DNA of 36,045 nt, from the NCBI RefSeq assembly GCF_000832015.1, contig NZ_JXCJ01000001.1:3210364-3246408 (forward strand), written 5' to 3'. The notes under the pieces were generated by a model. It worked only from the letters and a program-made list of their open reading frames with translations, searched no databases and was not told the origin of the DNA. This document shows positions 30,014 to 33,050 of the stretch, one piece after another (the stretch's first letter is position 1; the number at the start of each line of letters is the position of its first letter). This DNA is from Gilvimarinus agarilyticus. GTDB lineage: Bacteria; Pseudomonadota; Gammaproteobacteria; Pseudomonadales; Cellvibrionaceae. A program made the position numbers and the translations under genes.

Positions 30014-31109
30014 TTAAAGTCCGGCCTTAAGGCTCGCCTCAATAAATTGATCCAGCGAGCCGTCCAAAACACTTTGACAGTTGCTGGTTTGCACGCTGGT
30101 GCGCAAGTCTTTAATGCGCTGATCATCCAACACGTAAGAGCGAATTTGACTGCCCCAGCCAATATCCGACTTGGTGTCTTCCAGCGCTTGTTTGTCGGCG
30201 TTACGTTTTTGAATTTCCAGCTCGTACAACTTAGCGCGCAGCATTTTCCAGGCTTTGTCGCGGTTGGCATGCTGCGACCGCTCGCTTTGGCACTGCACAA
30301 CAACATTGGTCGGCTCGTGGGTTAAACGCACGGCCGAGTCGGTTTTGTTAATGTGCTGGCCACCGGCGCCGGAAGCGCGGTAGGTATCGGTACGGACATC
30401 CGATGGACTAATATCGATTTCGATATCGTCGTCAATCTCGGGCGAAACAAACACCGAGCAAAACGAGGTATGGCGACGGTTACCCGAGTCGAACGGCGAT
30501 TTGCGCACTAAGCGGTGCACGCCGGTTTCAGTACGCAACCAGCCAAAGGCGTATTCACCTTCAAAGCGAATAGTAGCACTTTTAATACCGGCCACTTCAC
30601 CGGCCGAGGCCTCCTCTAATGAGACTTTAAAGCCTTTTGCCTCGCCCCAGCGCAGGTACATACGCAGTACCATTTCGGCCCAGTCCTGTGCCTCGGTGCC
30701 GCCCGAGCCCGACTGAATATCCAGGTAGGCGCTGTTTTCGTCCATCTCACCTGAGAACATGCGACGAAACTCCAGCTTTTGCAGCTGCTGATCAAGTGAA
30801 TCGATCTCTTCGATCACTTCATTCAGGCTGTCTTCGTCCCCCTCCTCTTTGGCCATCTCCAACAGTTCTTCACAGTCGGCGACACCGGCATCCAAATCGT
30901 CAATGGTTTTCACCACAGTTTCAAGGGATGAGCGCTCTTTACCCAGCGCCTGAGCCCGGTCGGGCTCGTTCCAAACGTCGGGCTGACCGAGCTCTAGCTC
31001 AACCTCGGTTAAGCGCTCCTTTTTGGTGTCGTAGTCAAAGATACCCCCTAAGCACGTCGGTACGCGCCTTGAGATCTTTTAATGCGGTGAGATGCGGATT
31101 GATTTCCAT
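30014..31109 (-). CDS. prfB: Peptide chain release factor 2, with programmed +1 frameshift
   Basis: RF2 terminates translation at UGA and UAA. The gene begins with ATG at 31109, reads 24 codons, then meets an in-frame TGA (31037-31035) within CTTAGGGGGTATCTTTGAC. This is the classic RF2 site: a Shine-Dalgarno-like AGGGGG, then slippery CTT before TGA and C. A +1 shift joins frame to GAC (31036) and continues to 30014, giving about 364 residues, the usual length. The stop-recognition motif SPF (about 204-206) and the catalytic GGQ (about 249-251) are intact. Low RF2 raises frameshifting and so RF2 synthesis, an autoregulatory loop. A large palindromic element lies 22 bp upstream of the start. 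Confidence 0.98.
31035..31049 (-). promoter_or_regulatory. RF2 programmed frameshift signal
   Basis: On the minus strand AGGGGG (31049-31044), TAT, CTT (31040-31038) and TGA (31037-31035) are in the same arrangement as in E. coli prfB, with the TGA followed by C, a weak termination context. Confidence 0.97.
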
Positions 31110-31457
31110 GGGTGCACACTGCCTAATATTGAGGGCACCTCTAATCATTCAGAACCCCCTCTGGCCTTCATGGCTTTTCGCTATCAAGGCGGGTTTGCGA
31201 CGATGGGCTGGTTGCCCATATAGCAAAGCCAACGCAGAGAGCGGGAAGCCATGAAGGCCCCTCAGGGCGCGGCCAAAACGCCCACCCGCGTCATTGCTCT
31301 TTTTGCAAGGGCTTCGGCCATTGCCGGCAAAGAGCGCCTAGCGGTTGAACGTTTTGGACCCGCGCAGAGGTGATTATGAATTGTTAGAGTTGCCCTTAAG
31401 TCTAAAAGGCGCGCATTCTACCTTAGATACGGCCTGTACACTACCGCCAGGGTGCAT
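31110..31457. other. Non-coding region between prfB and the efflux permease
   Basis: This 348-bp region holds no gene; it is almost filled by the palindromic element at 31132-31397. The prfB promoter must lie here or within the element. No clear promoter was found. Confidence 0.7.
31132..31397. repeat. Two-lobed palindromic element, MITE/REP-like or structured RNA
   Basis: Imperfect terminal inverted repeats (AGGGCACCTCTAATCATTC from 31132; its partner 31366-31397) enclose two palindromic lobes. Lobe 1 has a perfect 14-bp stem, GGCCTTCATGGCTT (31163-31176) with AAGCCATGAAGGCC (31246-31259), an inner GCTAT/ATAGC and a tip ATGGGC/GCCCAT (31203-31219). Lobe 2 pairs CCAAAACG (31273-31280) with CGTTTTGG (31350-31357), GCTCTTT (31296-31302) with AAAGAGC (31329-31335), and ends in GGC-TTCG-GCC (31310-31319). 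No protein reads through it. Confidence 0.75.
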
Positions 31458-32546
31458 CTAGGCACCGCCCCAGAGGTTCATAATCACCGCGACCAAGAGC
31501 ACTTGAGGCAACACCACCAGCGGCAAAAACAACGCTGTTTTCCAAGACTTCATGGTGTCTTTGATCACCATAATCTCGGTGTAGTCGGTGGCCACCCCGG
31601 CCATTAAAAACATAAAGCTATTGCCCGGTGCGCGAGCGCGATTCATTAAATCGGCGGCGATGGGGGTCGAGCCTTCTGAGCACACCTCAATAATGGTGGC
31701 AGCCACCATGGTTAACAACAGGCCCACAACGGACGGCCCAAACCACTGCTGAAACATCTCGACCGAGACAAACGCCCGGATAGCGGCGGCCAGCAAGACG
31801 CCAAACAACAACCAACGCAACACCATCCTCGAGCCCTTTAAGCCCTCGCTTAACACGCCACCCCACGCACCGGGGTGCCAATTAATAGTGCCCCACAAAT
31901 CGCTCAGCTGCGTCTTTAAGGGAGTGTGTGGGGCGTTTTCTTGCGACTCGGCGGCAGGGTTATCTTGTAGCCGGCGGCGCTTCACCAAAGCGTCAAACAC
32001 CAGCCCCGCAATAACGCCAATTACCATCGACACCGCAATAAACAGTAGCGTCCAGCCCACACCAATAAGGGCAAACATAATTAGGGTAAGCGATAGTGAG
32101 TTCCAGGGGCTGGCAATCAAAAAAGCCATCACTTGGCCGAGGCTTGTCCCCTTTTGATAGAGCTTCATACCCACCATTAAGATGCCATGGCTGCACAAAT
32201 CCAGCAGTACCCCAGCGGCGGTCGCCCGCACAATACCCGACACGGTGCCACCGCGCCCCAACAAAGAAACCACCAACTGCTGGGGCACATAGTGCAGCAG
32301 GCCAACAAACAAAATACCTACCAACACCCCCCACCACATGGTGTTTAACAGCTCAAATACGCCGTGACTAAAATGTTCAAACCAATCGGGGCCAGTAAAC
32401 CCCAAGGCGTAAGCGCCGTAAAATACCGCGCACAACGCAAGCGAGCCCCACAGCAAATAATCGATCCGCCTCTTACTAGCACTGGCGCAGTGATCGTCGG
32501 TGTTGTGTTCATCTTTAGGCGGTTGTGGTTCACAGCAACTACTCAT
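31458..32546 (-). CDS. Cu/Zn efflux permease, SO_0444-like (DUF318/YraQ-type)
   Basis: The 362-residue multi-pass inner-membrane permease belongs to the group annotated as SO_0444 family Cu/Zn efflux transporters. It has a cysteine-bearing N-terminus (MSSCCEPQPPK), then TM segments with LLDLCSHGILMVGMKLYQKG, SPWNSLSLTLIMFALIGVGW and in the second half VCSEGSTPIAADLMNRARAPGN and FLMAGVATDYTEIMVI. The ATG at 32546 has a GGAGG site 6 bases upstream, and it overlaps the end of the cueR-like gene by 8 bases. Its regulator is CueR-like, so copper or silver export is the most likely job. Transport direction and metal are inferred from family and context. Confidence 0.87.
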   Translation of the reverse strand: MSSCCEPQPPKDEHNTDDHCASASKRRIDYLLWGSLALCAVFYGAYALGFTGPDWFEHFSHGVFELLNTMWWGVLVGILFVGLLHYVPQQLVVSLLGRGGTVSGIVRATAAGVLLDLCSHGILMVGMKLYQKGTSLGQVMAFLIASPWNSLSLTLIMFALIGVGWTLLFIAVSMVIGVIAGLVFDALVKRRRLQDNPAAESQENAPHTPLKTQLSDLWGTINWHPGAWGGVLSEGLKGSRMVLRWLLFGVLLAAAIRAFVSVEMFQQWFGPSVVGLLLTMVAATIIEVCSEGSTPIAADLMNRARAPGNSFMFLMAGVATDYTEIMVIKDTMKSWKTALFLPLVVLPQVLLVAVIMNLWGGA

Positions 32547-32988
32547 GAGAATCCTCCGGCAAATTTGGGGTATCGCCCAGCAAGGTAAACGGCATGGGCC
32601 GATTAGCCGCACTCAGATCATTTAAAATGGCGCATTGAGCCTGCTCATCGCCCTGACAACGTTGCGCGAGCTCTTCAAGGGTGTCCCGCATACGCGTCAG
32701 GTTATCGAGCTGCTCATCCAACTGGGCAATTTTCTGTTGCACGGCCTTTTTTACGTCGGCACTGTGACGCTCGGTGTCGTCAAACAACGCCAGTAACTCG
32801 GCGCACTCTTGCAGCGAAAACCCCACCCGACGGGCACGGGCCAACAATGTCAGCTGTTTTATATTGTCGCGGCCGTAGTCGCGGTAGCCGTTATCCCGGC
32901 GCCGACTCTTAACCAAACCCTGAGATTCGTAGTAACGGATTGCTTTTGCCGTTAAGCCTGTTTCTCGGGCTACTGCGCCAATCTTCAT
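32539..32988 (-). CDS. cueR: CueR-like MerR-family copper regulator
   Basis: This transcription activator senses Cu(I) and probably Ag(I)/Au(I). From the ATG at 32988 it has 149 residues. The winged helix (MKIGAVARETGLTAKAIRYY) is followed by a dimerisation helix and a metal loop. Two metal ligands, Cys111 and Cys119, are spaced C-x7-C (CQGDEQAQC) as in CueR. Ser76 in RHSADVK is in the position of CueR Ser77, the residue that marks monovalent-metal sensors; divalent sensors such as ZntR have Cys there. GGGAG is placed 8 bases before the start. The upstream operator shows that it activates its own operon with the efflux permease. Confidence 0.93.
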   Translation of the reverse strand: MKIGAVARETGLTAKAIRYYESQGLVKSRRRDNGYRDYGRDNIKQLTLLARARRVGFSLQECAELLALFDDTERHSADVKKAVQQKIAQLDEQLDNLTRMRDTLEELAQRCQGDEQAQCAILNDLSAANRPMPFTLLGDTPNLPEDSHE

Positions 32989-33019
32989 AGACTTTCTCCC
33001 GTGCTCCACCGTTTTCACC

Positions 33020-33050
33020 ACAATAAACCTTACCCCAGGGTTAAGGTCAA
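33020..33050 (-). promoter_or_regulatory. MerR/CueR-type promoter and operator with 19-bp spacer
   Basis: Read on the minus strand, -35 TTGACC (33050-33045) and -10 TATTGT (33025-33020) are separated by 19 bases. Inside lies the inverted repeat ACCTTA...TAAGGT (33027-33047). The over-long spacer and central dyad are diagnostic of MerR-family activation by DNA untwisting. The promoter drives the cueR-permease operon. Confidence 0.9.

Follow-up and report, generated by a model that had tools for sequence, protein, structure and literature searches.

For REP / REPIN repeats, mobilisation has been proposed to proceed as single-stranded DNA. In the MITEPsy1/ISPsy2 (IS5 family) system of Pseudomonas syringae, transposition of MITEPsy1 has been shown (PMC3189936), and in a group of structured repeats comprising Correia/NEMIS, ERIC, RUP and CIR, the CIR RNAs consist of two arms and a linker, and NEMIS and ERIC affect neighbouring mRNA (PMC2229807). 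The element analyzed here lies in front of prfB in a 36,045-nucleotide stretch of Gilvimarinus agarilyticus DNA (the window). By the descriptions in the available parts of the respective papers, it is, like MITEPsy1, non-coding with IS5-type ends (GTATCCTCTGAAAAAGCC at one MITEPsy1 end) and a 4-nt target duplication (CTAG or YTAA targets in MITEPsy1; PMC3189936); like Correia/NEMIS, ERIC, RUP and CIR, it is a small, non-coding, dispersed repeat that folds (PMC2229807); and like REP / REPIN and the TIR repeats with RAYT/TIRYT transposases, its family consists of inverted palindrome pairs dispersed between genes (PMC3733652). Among the titles and abstract openings listed in searches of open-licence literature, there was no description of this family.

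An insertion in the prfB leader

A sequence-only reading of the window had described a 266-bp palindromic segment before prfB. The 266 bases from 31132 to 31397 indeed fold at -140.3 kcal/mol vs -94.4 ± 5.0 in 200 dinucleotide shuffles, 0/200 of which were as good (z = -9.26), which upholds the structural part of that claim; its borders, however, were refined by comparison with other copies to 31133-31395, i.e., a non-coding element of 263 bp (a MITE with a two-lobed core), whose ends are defined by 55 end-bounded copies and an empty site. The vicinity to prfB was also correctly seen, although 23 bases, not 22, separate the element from the ATG. In the predicted fold, terminal inverted repeats enclose two lobes, each a long hairpin, with a small hairpin between them. 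The left repeat with its outer stem (GGGCACCTCTAATCATTCAGAA..., 31133-31162, plus strand) and the right one (31366-31395, minus strand), both assigned by fold and pattern, are imperfect as had been reported, reading AGGGCACCTCTAATCATT at one end and AGGGCAACTCTAACAATT at the other (2 mismatches to the pattern used). Lobe 1 (31163-31259; fold, covariation and lobe comparison) is a long hairpin with inner AAGGCG / CAACGC motifs and its module sense on the plus strand; it holds a perfect 14-bp stem, and its arms, 31163-31185 and 31237-31259, are 87% complementary over 23 nt. The central hairpin CC-TCA-GG (31260-31266; fold and covariation) separates it from lobe 2 (31267-31365; fold, covariation, covariance model and lobe comparison), the homologous module inverted, with its sense on the minus strand and, in the window copy, a cUUCGg loop at its tip (about 31312-31317). 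The two lobes, the 14-bp stem and the loop had all been pointed out by the sequence-only reading, and fold and sequence agree with it; the UUCG loop, one of its signs of RNA-level selection or a mobile element, is not a family feature, CTTCGG occurring at the lobe tip in only 4/85 non-redundant elements, window copy included.

On the minus strand, the order is MerR-like regulator (32539-33021), permease (31458-32612), both named by reading their translations, then the element and prfB. The prfB start codon (31107-31109, minus strand) is followed by the programmed frameshift TATCTTTGA. The usual programmed-frameshift site of prfB, CTTAGGGGGTATCTTTGAC, lies at 31030-31060 on the minus strand, and this pattern is present in 8/8 genus genomes. 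The gene itself was found in all eight, the window genome included, and the element is absent at prfB in the 7/7 other Gilvimarinus genomes examined. When its flanks are joined, the window leader aligns to the seven other leaders, with TAGAATGCGC and the start region common to all. A conserved -10-like box, TAGAAT (31415-31420, minus strand), lies upstream of the insertion when read towards prfB, where TAGAATGCGC is identical in 8/8 genus genomes; in a consensus scan, the leader had no full sigma-70 promoter and no terminator, so that it is by conservation that the box is identified.

The nearest relative (G005), with a PrfB 95% identical, has the empty site TTTTAGACGGCAATATT, and at the same place the prfB strand of the window reads TTTTAGACTTAA, then the element, then TCAATATT; comparison of the two gives a duplicated target of TTAA/TCAA with one mismatch. 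Contrary to the earlier statement that no target-site duplication was obvious, an imperfect one is therefore present, its left copy TTGA at 31129-31132 and its right copy TTAA at 31396-31399. Absence of the element from relatives' prfB had been named as damaging if there was no sign of insertion; it is indeed absent in 7/7, yet the empty site and the duplication are both seen. The element is thus an insertion and not a conserved prfB leader. It inserted at a YTAR-type site between the conserved -10-like box and the start codon and, because of this location, is probably transcribed together with prfB. The placement at prfB looks incidental: locally, about 265 structured bases have been placed in the leader of a translation-factor gene, and the prfB mRNA leader is probably just longer by about 265 nt and stiffer.

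A dispersed family with IS5-type ends

In its own genome (G000, 4.19 Mb) blastn found one copy only, with nothing else convincing at E <= 10; a single copy was part of what the earlier reading had named as refuting it, but many copies with conserved ends were found in related genomes, so that by blastn the anticipated dispersal was seen among relatives. Of 58 genomes (G000 included), 10 had matches to the element, with up to 13 places scored in each. With up to one mismatch, the end pattern occurs in 6/8 genus genomes at 2 to 31 places each, compared to 0 or 1 per strand for the reversed pattern; there were none in G000 or G005. From 143 loci, 55 end-bounded elements were extracted, 48 of them from six Gilvimarinus genomes. 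Among these 48, the lengths were 250-272 bp in 30 copies, 361-364 bp in eight and 273-330 bp in three; the remaining copies were of 226 bp (two), 160-180 bp (three) and under 60 bp (two, ends only). Since some loci were collected by core searches and others by the end pattern, the scarcity of core-less end pairs is only indicative. Two such pairs, nearly alone, were seen in G004 (L197, 1463-1516, 54 bp; L236, 210-266, 57 bp). Lobe 2 of L054, L068, L229, L230, L231, L234 and L029 contains additional hairpin modules (about 46 and 58 bp), at the same places across different species, giving length classes of 280, 312 and 361-364 bp.

One insertion is common to two species (L032 in G002 and L041 in G003), its 300-bp flanks being 0.95 and 0.97 alike; the L041 copy has lost about 9 bases of lobe 1. 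In Saccharospirillum impatiens a copy (L180, 1664-1943) adjoins three tRNA genes, which were the only matches in an Rfam scan of 20 loci with related copies. In L229, GGTGCTG-type units are repeated in a short tandem array next to an element copy, over about the last 110 bases. The window element had no match in plasmids or phages; among three related elements searched against plasmids, two had none, and the third matched an Azotobacter plasmid over 19% of its length. Of 71 elements with flanks, 61 could be scored for gene context by a crude longest-ORF rule, or 58 once three double entries were removed: 15 were co-directional with the plus strand, 16 with the minus strand, 12 convergent and 15 divergent. 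No orientation preference relative to neighbouring genes was thus seen.

The ends most often seen (about GGGAACCTCTGAATAA, YTAR targets) are the same as those of IS5-family elements, and most ends read about GGG(A/C)(A/G)CCTCT(A/G)(A/T)TTAA. Of 40 copies of class B, 12 had identical 4-mers on the left and right, one end base included, vs 5.4 when shuffled (p = 0.0015), with CTAG, TTAG and CTAA predominating; in 16 copies of class A, to which the window copy with its imperfect duplication belongs, 3/16 were identical (p = 0.13). A 2-bp TA duplication was considered and dropped, since 4 bp including one end base suits the class-B copies better. Genome G041 has a broken IS5-like transposase between family-type ends and also contains the element; one 63-aa piece of this transposase retrieved three plasmid records, each with the annotation IS5 family transposase, and matched in 20/293 genomes of the order. 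Among the 32 IS5-type loci so obtained, the end consensus (up to 3 mismatches of 16) was found at both ends in 16, 1.14-1.19 kb apart, compared to 0/32 for the reversed consensus, with 7/32 loci clipped by contig ends; the window-class ends differ from this consensus at some positions. Genome G029 has both IS5-type copies with family ends and the element. A search of G000 with one 63-aa transposase query gave no match, and the PF01609 loci of six congeners contained no IS with family-type ends. Since no IS5-type enzyme was found in its own genome, we infer that the element would have been mobilised in trans by such an enzyme.

The suggestion of a non-autonomous mobile element is thus supported by dispersed copies, conserved ends, target duplication, empty site and IS5-family ends: it is a MITE whose ends are of IS5 type and whose double-hairpin core is unusually conserved. 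This core, moreover, is not confined to one kind of end. A lobe-2 covariance model built from 19 copies matched in 60 of 293 genomes and 36 of 119 genera of the order (E <= 1e-4, stricter filters, up to 12 places scored per genome). In the own genome it found four places at E <= 0.1, the window copy included, so that the covariance search that had been proposed added three to the single blastn copy. The second place (C1:811271) is a single-lobed copy with IS5-type ends; the weaker ones, C1:1519694 and C1:1483223 (L383, L384; E = 1.3e-7 and 2.4e-4), have ends GCAGGCTGTTGAAAAACCCC unlike those of the window copy. Elsewhere, L338, L340, L344 and L334 carry a two-lobed core of similar length behind ends AGTGCCCTG or AGTGTCGTG. 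Covariance-model matches at L332 (about 1114) and L346 (about 830) have inverted ends of further sequences, 160 and 265 bp apart. A pattern search for AGTGCCCTG-type ends gave counts at best about twice those of the reversed-pattern control. The occurrence of the same core behind several end types is shown by these loci.

Paired modules and the form in which they are kept

Covarying stems, which had been called for as evidence of an RNA, were found. In 38 copies (alignment A2), 66/103 pairs change on both sides, compared to 37.6 ± 2.7 when shuffled (reached in 0/500 shuffles), with a covariation score of 0.314 vs 0.121 shuffled and 0.057-0.092 with slid partners, the structure being favoured over the slid versions by having been derived from the same alignment. 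In a set of 32 elements from 32 genomes, consisting of 25/30 loci of the lobe-2 model search and seven earlier copies, at least two Watson-Crick types occur in 88/104 pairs. Left out of this set and of the 85-element set below were L328 (single-lobed, 155 bp), L341 (wrongly bounded) and L332 and L346 (misplaced, as their contigs begin close by); L318 was left out of the 32-element set, its ends matching L319. The two lobes are themselves related: lobe 1 aligned to reversed lobe 2 with a mean score of 20.5, vs 15.1 on the same strand and 14.2 ± 2.3 shuffled, and AGGCG is found in 24/32 elements in lobe 1 on the plus strand and in 23/32 in lobe 2 on the minus strand, with 5 and 1 on the wrong strands. 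The lobes are therefore homologous modules on opposite strands that face each other, so that one module is in sense on either strand of the DNA.

In RNA and single-stranded DNA, G-T is better tolerated than A-C, so that a strand on which G-T is in excess would be one with a single-stranded function. For the RNase P RNA of 30 relatives the G-T:A-C ratio was 29:4, in contrast to 40:41 for the whole element in the 38 copies (Fisher p = 1e-4) and 61:57 in the 32-element set. RNA-level selection as earlier proposed is favoured by the covarying pairs but finds no support in the whole-element wobble. A purely double-stranded-DNA reading, based on the 40:41 ratio, was dropped once the lobes were separated, which revealed excesses on opposite strands: on the plus-strand reading of the 32-element set, lobe 1 gave 32:12, lobe 2 12:27 and the outer stem 17:18. 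The set was enlarged by 80 copies, 72 of them with recognisable ends, to 115 in total, or 85 from 39 genomes without near-duplicates; here the pair-by-genome counts were 126:43 in lobe 1, 38:113 in lobe 2 and 52:42 in the outer stem. Counted as events in the module sense, the ratio was 69:45 (p = 0.031), and 46:18 for events in two or more genomes (p = 0.0006); a stricter pairing cut-off gave 52:41 (p = 0.3) and, for shared events, 31:17 (p = 0.059). By pair, the module-sense excess was 31 vs 8 with at least three observations (p = 0.0003) and 38 vs 17 with any observation (p = 0.0065), or 21 vs 8 (p = 0.024) and 28 vs 17 (p = 0.14) at the stricter cut-off; the outer stem had no excess, and RNase P gave 22 vs 2. 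The 38-copy set alone had no per-lobe split in events (14:11 and 16:17), the per-lobe test being post hoc, on overlapping sets, with a split first visible in cell counts and not in unique events. A strand-biased mutation process could also imitate the split. We take the split as a post hoc hint, and as moderate evidence that weakens at the stricter cut-off, that each lobe may be maintained in the form of a single-stranded hairpin, whether of RNA or of DNA; excesses on opposite strands suit single-stranded DNA as well as RNA.

Three other explanations were considered. Palindromes might persist without selection if template switching in replication copied arm onto arm (quasi-palindrome correction), giving paired double changes; the available parts of two papers describe such a mechanism in inverted repeats and RNA stems (PMC8794818, PMC8604942), and the whole element does lack a wobble preference. 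However, copies less than 3% apart show 3 double vs 100 single pair changes, which counts against fast arm-to-arm correction as the sole cause; in the 0-6% range, all 16 runs of double changes were of length 1, none comprising two or more adjacent changes. In copies more than 30% apart double changes prevail (6756 vs 4771 single), all these counts being of non-independent pairs of copies. Once landed, copies thus seem to decay with no repair, whereas pairing is maintained in the lineage that spreads. The unpaired lobe motifs AGGCG and CAACR are also conserved, and the wobble is strand-specific per lobe, so that template switching appears a rather unlikely, though still appreciable, explanation. 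We consider far less likely a cis-acting leader RNA that regulates prfB, despite the probable transcription of the element and its very stable fold: the absence at prfB in 7/7 congeners rules out a conserved leader RNA, related copies lie beside other genes in both orientations alike, and Rfam has no family above threshold in the window.

A REP-type tyrosine (HUH) transposase might instead have moved the repeat, using the lobes as hairpin substrates, and the IS5-like ends would then be a later addition; this would agree with the strand-specific wobble of each lobe and with a core found behind several ends. By the available text of one report, REP dimers are also typically inverted palindrome pairs, and some RAYT-like genes are flanked by long inverted repeats that contain self-complementary tracts (PMC3733652). 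On the other hand, the lobe ends have no consistent tag, GTAG being found in 31/340 windows (18.6 shuffled, i.e., slightly enriched) and CGTC in 3/340 (35.9 shuffled), and a scan of 464 loci for the HUH signature motif returned one weak match, which leaves this origin improbable. Overall, the explanation that we favour with good confidence is an IS5-end MITE inserted at prfB with two paired, inverted modules. These would stay paired because copies that still propagate need them as single-stranded hairpins, most likely in DNA that is being replicated or transposed and possibly in RNA. A broader and tentative idea, possible but doubtful in our judgement, is that the inverted hairpin-module pair is a portable device working as a single-stranded hairpin, with one sense copy per DNA strand, which different transposon ends have repeatedly enclosed because it promotes their propagation; it would then be a previously unrecognised internal, cis-acting part of bacterial miniature elements.

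Comparison with known systems

Within the text available for each system, the family also departs from those with which it was compared above. MITEPsy1 is 100 nt long and the window element about 265 nt, and by its description, on which this comparison is based, no paired double-lobed core is mentioned for MITEPsy1 (PMC3189936). Correia/NEMIS, ERIC, RUP and CIR are described as about 105-155 bp, with CIR resembling MITEs only partly, and, unlike the window family, their description there is without homologous inverted modules or several end types (PMC2229807). REPs measure 20-40 bp and bear GTAG or CGTC tags (PMC3733652), in contrast to window lobes of about 97-99 nt that have no consistent tag and are located inside IS5-type ends. 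The per-lobe count of G-T vs A-C offers a simple way to ask whether a repeat maintains its structure in double-stranded DNA or in single-stranded form, and if the core helps copies spread, the role of internal structure in miniature elements becomes testable. In bacterial miniature elements, whatever lies between the two ends is usually regarded as filler; in this family it is that interior whose architecture persists across an order, with stems that change in sequence and stay paired.
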